Positions 7,657 to 33,578 of a stretch of 34,120 bases of DNA are shown one piece after another; within the stretch, counting starts at the first letter, position 1, and each line of letters begins with the position of its first letter. Under the pieces are notes generated by a model. That model was not told the DNA's origin. It saw only the letters and a program-made list of their open reading frames with translations, and searched no databases. The position numbers and the translations under genes are program-made. Origin of the DNA: Pseudomonadota bacterium (lineage in GTDB: Bacteria > Pseudomonadota > Gammaproteobacteria > Pseudomonadales > Azotimanducaceae); the NCBI GenBank assembly GCA_022571865.1, contig JACZXA010000016.1:1-34120 (forward strand), read 5' to 3'.

Positions 7657-8478
7657 TCAGAGTCGAACCAGGGTCAACTCACCGCCCGCTTCGACCAGCC
7701 GTGGCAGGTTGCTCAAGCTGTAACTCTGCCCCGTGACGCAGTCACCGGTTCGCACATCGAATCCATATCCATGCCACGGGCAGATGACGATTCCATTTTT
7801 GAGCTCGGCCTTCGCAAGCGGACCAGACTGGTGAGGGCAGACCGCAGGATATACGACAAGTTGTCCCCCCACCTCCGCCACCACATATTCACGCCCCCCT
7901 ACCTGCGTCGTACAGGGTAACTGCAGGTCCGCGCGTCGACCCAGCGAAATTCGTCGCGGCTGCGATTGACTGCCAACCTTCCCGCCACCGACCCGCGTGT
8001 CCAGCTGGCGTTGTCGCTCGACCATCATCGCAACATCTTCGTCGTACAGCGTCTGGTACAACCGCGCATAGACGAGACCTACTTTTTCGCGCGCATCATC
8101 CGGTACGTCCGGTACAAAAAAATCCACCACGATATCCACTCGCTGTTCCGAAATTGGAAAAACGTGAGTCCAGATCTCCGCACCCTTGCCGCGCCCTTCG
8201 AGGTTTCGGGTGATCCAGCGGCGGCATTTCTTGTCCAACCGCAGCTCAATCAGGGCTTCGTGACCAACCTGATCGGTGGTCCAGGCACGCCAACCCCAGG
8301 GTCCCGCGTCTTCACAGCGAAGGTCCGCAAAGCTCGAGGCATGCACATGAGGCAGATGCTCCCAATCCAGCGTATTTTCATACATGCGCTCGAGACTGAC
8401 CGGGAGTACGCGCCGATACGTGCCGACATGGGGTATGGCGCTGCCGGGAAACGGGGCGATTGTCGAATGATCTGGCAT
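7657..8478 (-). CDS. Rieske [2Fe-2S] protein with reversed domain order (oxygenase-like domain first)
   Basis: 273 residues. The N-terminal part resembles the catalytic domain of Rieske non-heme iron oxygenases: ENTLDWEHLPHVH gives the mononuclear iron ligand pattern D-x2-H-x4-H as Asp38, His41, His46, and LYDEDVAMMVERQ (144-155) resembles the late helix that supplies the carboxylate ligand. The C-terminal part (about 178-273) is a complete Rieske domain with CPHQSGPL (Cys214, His216) and CPWHGYGF (Cys233, His236). In canonical oxygenases the Rieske domain comes first, so this protein looks circularly permuted. It would act as a cytoplasmic oxygenase or demethylase on an unknown, perhaps aromatic or alicyclic, substrate and would need an electron-donating reductase, which is not in view. 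The start has only a weak GAGAG ribosome site. Confidence 0.85.
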   Translation of the reverse strand: MPDHSTIAPFPGSAIPHVGTYRRVLPVSLERMYENTLDWEHLPHVHASSFADLRCEDAGPWGWRAWTTDQVGHEALIELRLDKKCRRWITRNLEGRGKGAEIWTHVFPISEQRVDIVVDFFVPDVPDDAREKVGLVYARLYQTLYDEDVAMMVERQRQLDTRVGGGKVGSQSQPRRISLGRRADLQLPCTTQVGGREYVVAEVGGQLVVYPAVCPHQSGPLAKAELKNGIVICPWHGYGFDVRTGDCVTGQSYSLSNLPRLVEAGGELTLVRL

Positions 8479-8705: not shown

Positions 8706-9122
8706 TTAACATCGTCGATAATCAAAAACCAGTTTTCCCCCGTCCACCTCAACCTTGAGGTTATCCGGGCCCGCTGTTTCATCAAGGAGTTCAAAACTCA
8801 AGCCTTCGAAGCGTATTCGATGCGGTCCGACTTCCTGCAACGGAAACTGCACCACTTCCTCACGTGTTTCCCATGAAACCATGTCTGGCTGAAAGTGTTT
8901 CAATCTCAGCAGCCAGCGGCCCTCCTCTTGCACGATCACAAAAAACTCGTGAAAAGCCACCGCTTCGTCCTTCACGACCGTCATGGTGCCGGTCATGGCA
9001 TTGCCGAAAGGTGCATCCCAGCGTTCGATGACTTGTCCACCCAAAGCACTACCGCACCAGTTTCCCTGCAGGAACTCAAAATCCGCAAACGTCACGGCCC
9101 CGGCAACCAACCAGATCAACAT
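8706..9122 (-). CDS. DUF6265 family protein, probably exported
   Basis: 138 residues. A short hydrophobic N-terminus (MLIWLVAGAVTFA) looks like a brief signal peptide. The rest has the DUF6265 signature: FEFLQGNWCG, VIERWDAPFGNAMTGTM, a FHEFFVIVQEEGRWLLRLKHFQPD stretch in two halves, and a late FEGLSFELLDE. Members are small beta-barrel, lipocalin-like proteins of unknown role. The ATG is well supported by AGGAG eight bases upstream. The bidirectional terminator lies just beyond the stop. Monocistronic. Confidence 0.75.
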   Translation of the reverse strand: MLIWLVAGAVTFADFEFLQGNWCGSALGGQVIERWDAPFGNAMTGTMTVVKDEAVAFHEFFVIVQEEGRWLLRLKHFQPDMVSWETREEVVQFPLQEVGPHRIRFEGLSFELLDETAGPDNLKVEVDGGKLVFDYRRC

Positions 9123-13752: not shown

Positions 13753-13775
13753 AGTTCTCACGAGTCTGGAGAACT
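13753..13775 (-). other. Stem-loop overlapping the ileS stop codon
   Basis: On the minus strand a perfect seven-pair stem (13769-13775 with 13753-13759, AGTTCTC and GAGAACT) with a nine-base loop begins inside the TAG stop of ileS. It lacks a following T run, so it is more likely an mRNA 3'-end stabiliser than a full terminator. Confidence 0.4.
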
Positions 13776-16700
13776 ATCTGTACTTTGCCTTACTGACGCG
13801 GAAACGAAACTCCCTGCCGTCAATCTCGGCATCCGCAAAATTATTCAACCACTCGTCACGCTCGAACGTCGTCGCGAGTGTTTCCTTCATGATGTAGTCG
13901 CCGTGTTCACTCGCGGCATTGAGCAGCTCGGCATCGCCATCGAAGCTAACGGCAATTCGGTCGGCTACATGCAAACCCATCTCTTTACGACGTCGATTCA
14001 ACCGATTGACAATCGCGCGTGCGTACCCACCTCGAACCAATCCGTCATCCAACTCACAGTCGAGGTCCACTGCAATGAATCGGTTCGACAAGGTGTTGGT
14101 ACCGGGTCGTGGTTGTTGCAGAACTCGAATTTCATCGAGGTCGAAAGTTTCGCCTTCGAGCGTGATGTTACCTTCGGCTTGAAACTCGCTGATTTCGGCC
14201 GCCGACAGGTTCTGTATGAGGTTTTGAAACTCCTTCATGCGTTTGCCGAGCCTTTTGCCCAACAGCGGAAAGTTCGGCCTGGCCACAAGTTCGATATAGG
14301 CACTCTCATCGGCGTCGTAACTGACAGACTGAACGTTCAGCTCCGCTTTCACATAGTCTTCCAGAAGCGCCATGTTGGTGAGTAACTGCGGATCCCGATT
14401 GATGATCGTCAGAGATTTGAGTGGTGTGCGCAAGCCGATCTTCACCTCTTCGCGTCTCTGCCGCCCGAGCAATACCACCTGCTGCATACGTTCCACGGCG
14501 ACCTCGAGCTCCGGTTTTACCGCGTGCTCCTCGGCTTCGGGAAAGTCGCAAAGATGCACGGATTCGGGTCTCGCCTGTGTTCCCCCGAGCTTGGCGAGCT
14601 CCAGGTATACATGCTCCGCAAGAAACGGTGCGAAAGGCGCCATCACCTGGGAAAGTTCATAGAGGGTGGTGAAAAGCGTACTGTAAGCGGCGATCTTGTC
14701 GGCAGTGATGTCTTCGCCCCAGAACCTGCCGCGATTCAGCCTGATATACCAGTTGGTGAGATCTTCGATGAAACCGAACAACTGAGGCACGACATTGTAC
14801 AGTTGGTAACAATCCATCTCACGAGCGACGTTCGTCTTCAATGTCTGCAACCGTGAAAGAATCCACTGATCCAGAATGTTGTCGCCTCTATGCACGCCTT
14901 TGTCGGGCGACCAGTTATCGATCTCAGCGTAAGTCTTCAAGAATGAGAAAGCGTTGTACCATGGCAGCAAAGCCCGCCGAGCCATGTCCCTGACGCCTGA
15001 GTCTGCGAACGATTGTTCTTCCCCGCGTACAAGACCGGAGGTAATCAGGTACAGGCGCAAGGCATCGGCACCATAGGTCTCCATGAGTTCGTCGGGAGGC
15101 GTATAGTTCTTCAACCGTTTCGACATCTTCTTGCCGTCTTCGGCGAGCACCATGCCGTTCACGATGACGTTGCGAAACGCTGGCTTGTCATAAATTGCCG
15201 CCGCGAGCACGGTCAACGTATAAAACCAACCTCGAGTCTGATCCAGACCTTCGGCGATAAATTCCGCCGGAAAACCTCCTTCGAATAATTTCTGGTTCTC
15301 GAACGGATAGTGCAGTTGGGCATAAGGCATGGAGCCCGATTCGAACCAGCAGTCGAGCACTTCCTCGATCCGCCGGTATGTTCCTTCCTCACCCTCGATT
15401 TCGAATGTGAGTGGGTCGACATATTCACGGTGAAGATCGTCAACGCGTACACCCGTATATTCCTCGAGCTCATCGAGGGAACCGATGCAGATTCGCTTGT
15501 CGGTCACATCGTTGACCCAGATGGGAATCGGCGTTCCCCAGATCCGGTTGCGGCTGATAGCCCAGTCGACCGAACCTTTGAGCCAGTTGCCGAAGCGCCC
15601 GTGTTTGATGTGATCGGGCACCCAGCGGATCTGCTCGTTGGCCGCAATCAGCTTGTCACCAAATGACGAAACCCGTACATACCAGGACGGAATGGTCCGG
15701 TAGATCAGCGGCGTATCCGAGCGGTAGCAGAACGGGTAGCTGTGCTGAATCACATCCTGCACGTAGAGCATGCCGTTGCTCTTGAGATCTTTGATGATTT
15801 GTTTATCCGCTTCTTTGACGTCGAGCCCCGCGTAGGCTGGTACTTCGTCAGTGAATACACCGTGAAGCGTAACCGGGCAGACGAACGCCTCGATGCCGGC
15901 TTCTCTGAGTACCCGATAGTCATCCTCGCCGAAGGCCGGCGCCTGATGGACGAGACCCGTGCCGCTTTCGGTGGTGACGTAGTCATCCATGACGACGACG
16001 AAAGCACCGCGCTCGACTTCGTGCATGAAAAACGGAAACGGTGGCTCGTAGTGTCGCCCGACAAGTTCGCGACCGGTCAATCGGGCCTTGATTTCGAACT
16101 CACCGTATTCGCCAAGCCGCGCCGCGGCGAAGTAGATATCGACATCTCGTTCAGGATCGTGGGCTTTGACGTAGTCGATGTCCGGGCCGACGCAGACAGC
16201 CAGGTTTGAGGGCAAGGTCCATGGCGTGGTCGTCCATACCGACAGGTAGGCGTCCTCGTCGGAAAGTTTCAACAACACGGTGATCGCCGGATCCTGCACG
16301 TCCATGTAGTTGGAAGTTGCTTCGAAGTTCGACAAGGGCGTACCGAGCGCGGTGGAAATCGGCATCACCTTTACACCCTGGTAGATGAGATCTTTTTCCC
16401 AGAGTTGTTTCAACACCCACCACAGTGACTCCATGTACCACGTGTCCATGGTCTTGTAGTCATTGTCAAAATCCACCCAGCGTCCGAGCCGGGTGATGGT
16501 ATAGCGCCACTGGTCGACGTACCGCTGCACAATGGAGCGGCACATCTGGTTGTACCCATCGACTCCCATCTCCTCGACGGCTTGTGACGCCGACATGTTG
16601 AGTTGTTTATCGATTTCGTGCTCGACGGGCAACCCGTGGCAATCCCAACCAAACCTGCGCATGACGTATCGACCGCGCATGGTCCAATAACGTGGCACGA

Positions 16701-16905
16701 TATCTTTGATGGTATTGGCAACGAGATGCCCGTGATGAGGCAGACCCGTGGCAAAAGGCGGCCCATCGTAGAAAATGTAAGGCTTTTTCTCTTTCGTGTT
16801 ATCCAGAGATTTCTGAAAAATCTGCCCGGCTTCCCAGAACGCGAGAATCTCGTGTTCCATGTCTACGAATGAGAAAGTTGCCGAGCTAGGGGCGGGTTCA
16901 GCCAT
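13774..16905 (-). CDS. ileS: Isoleucyl-tRNA synthetase, long (type 2, eukaryote-like) form
   Basis: 1043 residues from the ATG at 16905; the GTG at 16944 would add 13 residues of no family character. Class I signatures are HHGH (57-60) within GPPFATGLPHHGH, GWDCHGLPVEHE (86-97) and KMSKR (593-597). The editing domain shows TTTPWTLP (225-232) and GTGLVHQAPAFGEDD (315-329). The GPPFATG and GWDCHGLPVE context, the length and the absence of a C-terminal zinc finger place it in the IleRS2 group, whose members are typically insensitive to mupirocin. It charges tRNA-Ile in the cytoplasm. No tRNA-dependent leader or T-box is visible upstream. It is divergent from an LLM oxidoreductase gene. Confidence 0.96.
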   Translation of the reverse strand: MAEPAPSSATFSFVDMEHEILAFWEAGQIFQKSLDNTKEKKPYIFYDGPPFATGLPHHGHLVANTIKDIVPRYWTMRGRYVMRRFGWDCHGLPVEHEIDKQLNMSASQAVEEMGVDGYNQMCRSIVQRYVDQWRYTITRLGRWVDFDNDYKTMDTWYMESLWWVLKQLWEKDLIYQGVKVMPISTALGTPLSNFEATSNYMDVQDPAITVLLKLSDEDAYLSVWTTTPWTLPSNLAVCVGPDIDYVKAHDPERDVDIYFAAARLGEYGEFEIKARLTGRELVGRHYEPPFPFFMHEVERGAFVVVMDDYVTTESGTGLVHQAPAFGEDDYRVLREAGIEAFVCPVTLHGVFTDEVPAYAGLDVKEADKQIIKDLKSNGMLYVQDVIQHSYPFCYRSDTPLIYRTIPSWYVRVSSFGDKLIAANEQIRWVPDHIKHGRFGNWLKGSVDWAISRNRIWGTPIPIWVNDVTDKRICIGSLDELEEYTGVRVDDLHREYVDPLTFEIEGEEGTYRRIEEVLDCWFESGSMPYAQLHYPFENQKLFEGGFPAEFIAEGLDQTRGWFYTLTVLAAAIYDKPAFRNVIVNGMVLAEDGKKMSKRLKNYTPPDELMETYGADALRLYLITSGLVRGEEQSFADSGVRDMARRALLPWYNAFSFLKTYAEIDNWSPDKGVHRGDNILDQWILSRLQTLKTNVAREMDCYQLYNVVPQLFGFIEDLTNWYIRLNRGRFWGEDITADKIAAYSTLFTTLYELSQVMAPFAPFLAEHVYLELAKLGGTQARPESVHLCDFPEAEEHAVKPELEVAVERMQQVVLLGRQRREEVKIGLRTPLKSLTIINRDPQLLTNMALLEDYVKAELNVQSVSYDADESAYIELVARPNFPLLGKRLGKRMKEFQNLIQNLSAAEISEFQAEGNITLEGETFDLDEIRVLQQPRPGTNTLSNRFIAVDLDCELDDGLVRGGYARAIVNRLNRRRKEMGLHVADRIAVSFDGDAELLNAASEHGDYIMKETLATTFERDEWLNNFADAEIDGREFRFRVSKAKYR

Positions 16906-17001
16906 GACCAACGCTGCCGCGAAAAAGAGCCGCGGATTGTACACGTGAATTTCGTTCCTAGCTCGGTTACCGTTCTATCCAAGACGGTGCAAGGCGATGA
17001 C

Positions 17002-31892: not shown

Positions 31893-33578
31893 ATGAGCTT
31901 AAACGTTGTCAAGCAGGCGAACGATACGGTTGTGCTCGACTTTCAGACACATCCCGAACGCTACCAACACTGGCAGCTTGAGATCACTCCGCCTTGCGCC
32001 ACCTTGCGCCTTTCGGTCGCGGAGGATGGCGGCGTGTTTCCCGGCTACCAGTTGAAGCGCAACTCCTACGACATTGGCGTGGACATCGAACTTCATGACG
32101 CCATTCAGCGCCTGCGCTTCGAGCATCCCGAGATCCGGGTGGTAATAATCACCTCCGCACTCGCCAGCTCGTTCTGTGCCGGGGCGAACATCCAAATGCT
32201 CGCGCAGGCCTCCCACCACCACAAAGTGAACTTCTGCAAGTTCACGAATGAGACTCGCAATGCCATCGAGGATGCAACCGCCCACTCCGGGCAACGTTAC
32301 CTGACGGCCATCAACGGCACGGCCGCTGGAGGCGGGTACGAATTGGCATTGGCAACCGATTACATCGTACTGATCGATGACGGCCGAGCAGCGGTCTCGC
32401 TACCCGAAGTATCGCTGTTAGCCGTCCTCCCGGGTACCGGGGGTCTTACCCGCCTGGTGGATAAACGCAAGATCCGCCGAGACATTGCAGATGTTTTCTG
32501 CACCTTGGAGGAAGGAATGCGCGGGGCACGCGCATTGGAAAACAAGCTGGTCGACGAAACAGTACCTTCTTCGAGTTTCGACGAAAGAGTCGCGACCCTT
32601 GCCACGGAACTTGCCGATAAATCGGATCGGCCAAGCGACCAGACAGGCATCTCCATGACAACTCTCGACAAAAACATCAGAAGCGACGGTGTGGATTATG
32701 AGTACGTGTGCGTCGACTACCAGCCCGGCGTCGCGACGGTCACGTTAAGAGGGCCGACAAATTCTGCTCCCGCTGACATCGCGGGGGTGCACATGGCGGG
32801 CGCGAGCTTCTGGCCATTGGCCTTGTTGCGAGAACTGGATGATCTGCTGTTACATCTACGTTTCAATGAACCTTCGCTTGGATCTCTGGTGTTCAAAAGC
32901 CGCGGTGATCTCGAATGTGTACTGAACTACGACGCACTTCTCATTGAGCACGCTGACGACTGGTTGGTTCGAGAGGTCAATCTGTATGCCGCTCGAGTCT
33001 TCAAGAGACTCGATCTCACCGCGAGATCTCTGTTTGCATTAATCGAGCCGGGTAGCTGTTATGCAGGATGGCTCAGCGAAGTGCTTTTTGCCGTCGATCG
33101 CAGTTACATGTTCAAAGGAACGTATGACGTGGAGGAGGAAATCGAACCCGCGGTCATCGTGTTGAGCGAAAACAACTTCGGCCGTTACCCCATGGTCAAC
33201 GGTCTCAGTCGGCTGCAAACTCGATTTCTGGGCGAAACCGATAAGGTGACGAGCGTGCACACCCAAGTCGGCGTCAGGCAAACGGCGCAGACCGCACTGC
33301 AACAGGGATTGGTGACGTTTGCACTGGATGACATCGATTGGGAGGATGAGATTCGCCTGCTCCTGGAGGAACGGTCGAGCTTTTCACCCGACGCGCTGAG
33401 TGGCATGGAGGCAAACCTGCGTTTTCCGGGTCCGGAGACCATGGAAAGCAAGATTTTTGCGCGCTTGAGTACCTGGCAGAACTGGATATTCCAACGGCCA
33501 AACGCTGTGGGTGAAAACGGCGCGCTGCGGCGGTTCGGTACCGGGAGACGCCCGGATTTTGATAAGAAAAGAGTTTAG
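31893..33578 (+). CDS. boxC: 2,3-epoxybenzoyl-CoA dihydrolase (benzoyl-CoA ring cleavage)
   Basis: 561 residues, a two-part crotonase-fold enzyme and the usual length of BoxC. The N-terminal third has the crotonase site: SSFCAGANIQML oxyanion segment, INGTAAGGGYELALATDY and SLPEVSLLAVLPGTGGLTRLVDKRK, followed by IRRDIADVFCTLEEGMRG. The C-terminal half has LRELDDLLLHLRFNEPSLGSLVFKSRGD, SLFALIEPGSCYAGWLSEVLFAVDRSYM and ENNFGRYPMVNGLSRLQTRFLG in pieces, typical of BoxC. It hydrolyses the epoxide-derived ring to an aldehyde plus formate in aerobic benzoate degradation. The boxB gene follows 164 bases later on the same strand. Confidence 0.95.
   Translation: MSLNVVKQANDTVVLDFQTHPERYQHWQLEITPPCATLRLSVAEDGGVFPGYQLKRNSYDIGVDIELHDAIQRLRFEHPEIRVVIITSALASSFCAGANIQMLAQASHHHKVNFCKFTNETRNAIEDATAHSGQRYLTAINGTAAGGGYELALATDYIVLIDDGRAAVSLPEVSLLAVLPGTGGLTRLVDKRKIRRDIADVFCTLEEGMRGARALENKLVDETVPSSSFDERVATLATELADKSDRPSDQTGISMTTLDKNIRSDGVDYEYVCVDYQPGVATVTLRGPTNSAPADIAGVHMAGASFWPLALLRELDDLLLHLRFNEPSLGSLVFKSRGDLECVLNYDALLIEHADDWLVREVNLYAARVFKRLDLTARSLFALIEPGSCYAGWLSEVLFAVDRSYMFKGTYDVEEEIEPAVIVLSENNFGRYPMVNGLSRLQTRFLGETDKVTSVHTQVGVRQTAQTALQQGLVTFALDDIDWEDEIRLLLEERSSFSPDALSGMEANLRFPGPETMESKIFARLSTWQNWIFQRPNAVGENGALRRFGTGRRPDFDKKRV

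Follow-up and report, generated by a model that had tools for sequence, protein, structure and literature searches.

On the minus strand of the window, as we call the whole 34,120-nucleotide stretch analyzed here, positions 7657–8478 hold a complete gene (ATG to stop) for a 273-residue protein of the Rieske oxygenase (RO) type with reversed domain order. The first-pass annotation had described an oxygenase-like domain in front of a Rieske domain, and our analysis agrees: the encoded protein begins with an RO-type motif and ends with a Rieske [2Fe-2S] domain, with D38-x2-H41-x4-H46 and C214-x-H216-x16-C233-x2-H236 at the positions originally reported. The protein consists of (i) a catalytic SRPBCC (helix-grip) domain, residues 14–160 (7999–8439, minus strand), defined by VIA-align and by pLDDT block means of at least 90; (ii) an interdomain linker, residues 161–175 (7954–7998, minus strand), variable in sequence and length, which is marked by alignment gaps and the lowest pLDDT; and (iii) a Rieske [2Fe-2S] domain, residues 176–273 (7660–7953, minus strand), detected by PF00355 (E 1.3e-12 over residues 188–251) and by Foldseek.

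The open frame, followed upstream, comprises 277 codons, and the next ORF lies 227 bp away; neither this frame nor the gap hides an in-frame Rieske domain. By eye, the gap holds a GC-rich inverted repeat. The gene upstream (8706–9122, minus strand) encodes a DUF6265 protein and is found near the Rieske gene in four loci, including the window.

Scanning one genome per species, we found 34 related loci, mostly in metagenome-assembled genomes of Gammaproteobacteria/Pseudomonadales, along with one alphaproteobacterium (L020) and one member of the Myxococcota (L032, 36% identity). The main alignment comprises 30 of the resulting 35 sequences, the window included; one of its rows (L024) contains an ambiguous residue. 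Left out were three sequences cut by contig ends (L021, L031, L034) and two with ambiguous residues (L022, L026), and these five show the same motifs wherever those parts are present, L031 and L034 ending before the Rieske domain. A second alignment of 20 rows adds the distant members L066, L100, L101 and L107 (rows 29–43% identical to L066). The first-pass annotation had called for homologues sharing the domain order. In characterized ROs the Rieske domain comes first and the catalytic domain last (PMC7293229), and this order is reversed in every examined member that spans both halves.

Conserved residues and predicted fold of the N-terminal half

Every expected ligand and the bridging residue are conserved. 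The N-terminal motif, E34-N35-x2-D38-x2-H41-x4-H46 (8341–8379, minus strand), is invariant in all 30 aligned sequences, as are D146 and D148 of the D146-E147-D148 segment (8035–8043, minus strand), located in the helix that closes the catalytic domain, and the Rieske ligands C214, H216, C233 and H236. The 20-row alignment retains all of these residues except N35 (19 of 20 rows). Lack of conservation of the D/H/H residues had been named in advance as grounds for rejecting an oxygenase-like domain; D38, H41 and H46 are invariant in 30/30 and 20/20 rows. The single exception at N35 is L101 (genome G463), a divergent 222-residue member with Asp at this position and fewer residues ahead of the Rieske ligands, which keeps D38, H41, H46, D146, D148 and the Rieske ligands. 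When the window protein was shuffled 200,000 times, D-x2-H-x4-H appeared in 1.6% of the shuffles (3,184), the Rieske pattern in 101, and E-N-x2-D-x2-H-x4-H in none.

In SxtT, N158 and the bridging D161 are followed by the iron ligands H164, H169 and D280 (PMC7293229). The N-x2-D-x2-H-x4-H spacing is identical to that of SxtT N158/D161/H164/H169, so that D38, at the motif position of D161, is by analogy the counterpart of the bridging Asp and would have a bridging role, while H41 and H46 are the counterparts of the two His ligands. The first-pass annotation had taken Asp38 for an iron ligand together with H41 and H46; the two histidines stand, D38 does not, and the third ligand, to which it had made no reference, is most likely D148, corresponding to SxtT D280. 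The resulting 2-His-1-Asp triad (H41, H46, D148) is present with RO-like spacing and is predicted to bind metal: H46 and D148 are 102 residues apart in 21 of the 30 members (range 102–109), and in SxtT the third ligand lies 111 residues past the second His (PMC7293229). Using hhalign against seven canonical ROs, the alignment covered the motif and continued as far as the helix SEDLEML/DEDVAMM (P 6.4e-5, probability 64) and paired D148 with an Asp that is invariant in these seven; matches to two other RO sets were weak (P 0.023 and 0.089).

In the window protein, Pfam VanA_C matches residues 29–55 (E 0.02, 15.4 bits versus a cut-off of 23.5) and Ring_hydroxyl_A residues 105–166 (E 0.15, 12.4 bits versus 24.9); neither these nor any other RO catalytic-domain model passes its Pfam cut-off, and no NCBIfam family scores above cut-off. 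Across the 30 aligned members, at E values up to 10, RO catalytic families are the commonest Pfam matches to the N-terminal half (VanA_C in 29, Ring_hydroxyl_A in 13, KshA_C in 4); the iron-free family Polyketide_cyc2 matches in 1. Of the 29 members examined singly (all but L024), only L012 passes the VanA_C cut-off (27.8 versus 23.5 bits, residues 29–56), and most VanA_C matches span the motif alone. The Ring_hydroxyl_A matches in nine members (the window protein, L003–L007 and L010–L012) cover approximately residues 105–166, with a best E of 0.005; since they include the third-ligand helix, they provide support for an RO relationship that is independent of the motif. A KshA_C match in L010 spans residues 22–151 (E 0.03). 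When the catalytic-half profile was compared with the PDB by sequence, no RO was found; the only two matches (E 1.1 and 2) are both unrelated proteins.

AlphaFold2, run on the 30-sequence alignment, returned a model with a mean pLDDT of 92.6 and a pTM of 0.83, in which the main dip is in the linker (mean pLDDT 61 over residues 161–170, the lowest of the model). The distant member L032 gave a pLDDT of 89.4 and a pTM of 0.79, with its structural elements arranged in much the same sequence, so the same layout appears in models of two members that are 36% identical. These pTM values suggest that the two domains are placed relative to each other with some confidence. In the model, the motif lies on and just past two short helices that follow strand 17–25, and D148 on the long helix 127–167. 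The N-terminal half has the helix-grip SRPBCC fold: the best VIA-align match has a Z-score of 15.7 (rmsd 2.4, 132 residues aligned), and the 50 matches listed have Z-scores of 12.9–15.7, mostly over model residues 11–160. Small SRPBCC proteins of the Bet v 1/START type fill and crowd these lists, and no RO chain is among the 50 matches listed. Neither sequence nor fold points to an unrelated N-terminal domain without an iron site, the outcome that the first-pass annotation had considered fatal to its reading, and iron binding there is predicted.

In having N-x2-D-x2-H-x4-H, a third-ligand Asp on a helix late in the catalytic domain, and one Rieske [2Fe-2S] domain, the protein resembles the alpha-only VanA/KshA/SxtT-like ROs. 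It differs from them in that its Rieske domain occupies the C-terminus rather than the N-terminus and its catalytic half falls mostly below the Pfam cut-offs; because of the latter, such proteins are expected to carry only a Rieske-protein annotation. It is also smaller than canonical ROs, with 273 residues compared to ORFs of 318–512 residues for the 32 ROs in our tree. We set it apart from the canonical RO members on account of its reversed domain order, that order being a defining feature.

The Rieske half and the origin of the domain order

The two Rieske ligand pairs, C214-P-H216 (7831–7839, minus strand) and C233-P-W-H236 (7771–7782, minus strand), form the expected C-x-H ... C-x2-H pattern, and PF00355 scores above its cut-off. 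The C-terminal half is predicted to adopt the fold of soluble Rieske ferredoxins such as CarAc and the ferredoxins of naphthalene and nitrotoluene dioxygenases (Foldseek 5bok, E 3.3e-6, TMt 0.77; with 3gce and 1vck, TMt 0.75–0.79). Unlike these ferredoxins it does not stand alone, being fused behind a roughly 150-residue SRPBCC domain.

A first tree of 60 Rieske domains seemed to group the reversed-order family with ferredoxins (96/85); we discarded this result, as its labels had rested on length alone. As judged from their sequences, L038 in that tree is a fragment adjoining the frame of an RO catalytic domain, and L093 (genome G010) carries a Rieske ferredoxin domain at the N-terminus of an apparent thiamine-pyrophosphate enzyme. 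With labels corrected and L038 and the long-branched L079 removed, the rebuilt, unrooted tree has 58 rows and 110 columns, four of the rows being of ferredoxin type. Both trees used 18 of the 30 rows of the family alignment and omitted two wrong-frame pattern matches (L053_Fd_140, L061_Fd_157) and a duplicate (L065). In the rebuilt tree, the reversed-order family forms one group (99/99) that is clearly separate from the Rieske domains of all 32 canonical ROs sampled (100/98); the family, the ferredoxin-type domains and the canonical ROs meet at one unrooted node, and either of the latter two may be the sister group.

These results bear on how the order arose. The first-pass annotation had suggested a circular permutation. 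In such an event the N-terminal Rieske domain of a canonical RO would have moved behind the catalytic domain, with the chemistry unchanged. This is one possible origin: both canonical domains are present, phmmer ranks two RO chains, SxtDIOX and SxtT, as the best PDB matches of the Rieske half (E about 2e-5), and the three-group node is compatible with sisterhood to the ROs. However, the Rieske half falls outside the sampled RO clade, the Rieske chains among the 50 Foldseek matches listed are free ferredoxins, and the soluble-ferredoxin model Rieske_4 matches 25 of the 30 members (best 2.2e-4), all of them below its cut-off. Moreover, three surveys with the catalytic half, each scoring a limited number of candidates per genome, revealed no canonical-order protein with the same catalytic domain. 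Because of the position of the Rieske half outside the sampled canonical domains, we consider it at least as likely that a Rieske domain became fused to a catalytic domain of the RO type, and favor such a fusion modestly, and we regard a true permutation as possible but doubtful. The same three surveys detected no stand-alone catalytic domain; their shortest frame (203 residues, genome G474) apparently ends at a contig edge.

Domain order may also bear on the electron route. The two centers are described as about 45 A apart within one chain in SxtT or GxtA (PMC7293229); in CntA they are separated by 44 A within a chain and by 12.2 A over the interface between subunits (PMC7948474). It is conceivable, if on balance unlikely, that the reversed-order proteins are a separate RO lineage with a ferredoxin-type Rieske domain fused behind the active site, each working as a single chain whose cluster lies within reach of its own iron, without the trimeric path between subunits that known ROs use. 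A natural family of opposite order, kept in many environmental bacteria, can test whether the usual between-subunit route is obligatory. No paper on a reversed or permuted RO was present among the literature matches listed, as judged from titles and abstract openings in a collection covering a minority of subscription papers, and 'permut' occurs 0 times in the passages covered of PMC12445004.

Proposed function, distribution and genomic surroundings

Our preferred reading, to which we assign a probability of roughly 0.7, is that the gene encodes a reversed-order Rieske oxygenase, probably one in which a catalytic domain of the RO type gained a Rieske domain at its C-terminus, placing the sole Rieske cluster after the active site in the chain. 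The N-terminal SRPBCC domain would bind a mononuclear iron via H41, H46 and D148, and O2 would be activated in this domain; electrons would reach the iron from the ferredoxin-like Rieske domain at the C-terminus across D38 as the bridging Asp, within or between chains. The protein most likely works like a Rieske oxygenase. Its reversed order would represent another way to assemble an RO from parts, and at 273 residues it may offer a small scaffold for enzyme work.

Alternatively, the protein may be no oxygenase at all, with the N-terminal half serving as an SRPBCC ligand-binding or sensing domain, or the whole as an electron-transfer protein, and the D/H/H/D residues holding no catalytic iron. 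Its predicted N-terminal fold is that of the SRPBCC/START/Bet v 1 superfamily, to which the listed structural matches belong; no redox partner was recognized nearby; and in L032 the iron-free family Polyketide_cyc2 (1.7e-4) outscores VanA_C (0.07). We nevertheless judge this explanation improbable, as neither the bridging Asp nor any of the three expected ligands varies, their spacing is close to that of ROs, and RO catalytic families prevail among the N-terminal matches. The invariant iron-motif residues and the fused Rieske domain distinguish the protein from SRPBCC/START/Bet v 1 proteins.

Of 58 relatives, 20 carry the reversed-order protein (matches at E 4e-69 or better): 19 of these are among the 37 members of the window's own family and 1 is among the 21 others. 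The protein was also detected in 8 of 293 genomes of the order, in 5 of 61 genomes around G434, and in 2 of 398 genomes sampled across the phylum; these sets overlap one another and probably the 34 loci too. A third match in the phylum survey (L067, E 5e-4) was dropped as a chance match, since its sequence reads as a family-B DNA polymerase. Among 72,556 plasmid records, none covers 80% of the query; the seven matches fall on the Rieske half, and two of them (H2 and H6) are annotated as thiamine pyrophosphate-binding proteins, which L093 too appears to be. Although the source genome is a draft of 315 contigs, an annotation or assembly artefact joining a truncated canonical RO to a neighboring ferredoxin gene is refuted for practical purposes by relatives with the same layout: 34 loci of other assemblies carry the protein without internal stops, 32 of them spanning both halves, and it recurs in the further surveyed genomes.

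We also looked for an electron donor. None of 333 ORFs from the loci, the Rieske gene included, contains the plant-ferredoxin or FNR-like motifs tested, and the one further Rieske-pattern match among these ORFs reads as a hydrolase. In G434 there are only two Rieske matches, the reversed-order protein and a 191-residue frame of apparent bc1-type pattern, and no separate Rieske ferredoxin was seen. The FNR-type model PF00175 matches in G000 and G505 and has no match in G434, G462 and G463, while the plant-ferredoxin model PF00111 matches in all four genomes searched, in some cases in proteins of about 110 residues. Reductase_C (PF14759), which we take to be typical of BphA4-type reductases, occurs once each in G000, G434, G462 and G463. 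Of the 20 genomes among the 58 relatives that encode the reversed-order protein, 18 also have Reductase_C. However, the presence of Reductase_C in 25 of the 38 genomes without the protein, and its absence from G048 (99% complete), which has the reversed-order protein, weaken the Reductase_C protein as a candidate donor.

Of the 42 loci that contain the gene, 26 have ileS as the adjacent upstream ORF in the same orientation, although some of the loci look like one species taken from two collections; in the window, according to the ORF list, five ORFs lie between ileS (13774–16944) and the Rieske gene. Recurrent neighbors are an enoyl-CoA hydratase (28 loci) and a LysR regulator (16 loci), both named after the window genes, and what is presumably an alpha/beta hydrolase (14 loci). 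In L102 and L103 (genomes G434 and G462), the gene follows an enoyl-CoA hydratase, an alkyl-sulfatase-like protein, two acyl-CoA dehydrogenases and a nitronate monooxygenase-like protein, as read from sequence. Together with the Rieske gene, this run of CoA-ester and flavin enzymes is perhaps one operon, and it hints at CoA-linked catabolism. The window also contains, on the plus strand at 31893–33578, a gene of the aerobic benzoyl-CoA epoxide pathway, boxC, encoding 2,3-epoxybenzoyl-CoA dihydrolase (TIGR03222, 838.9 bits versus a cut-off of 712.3).
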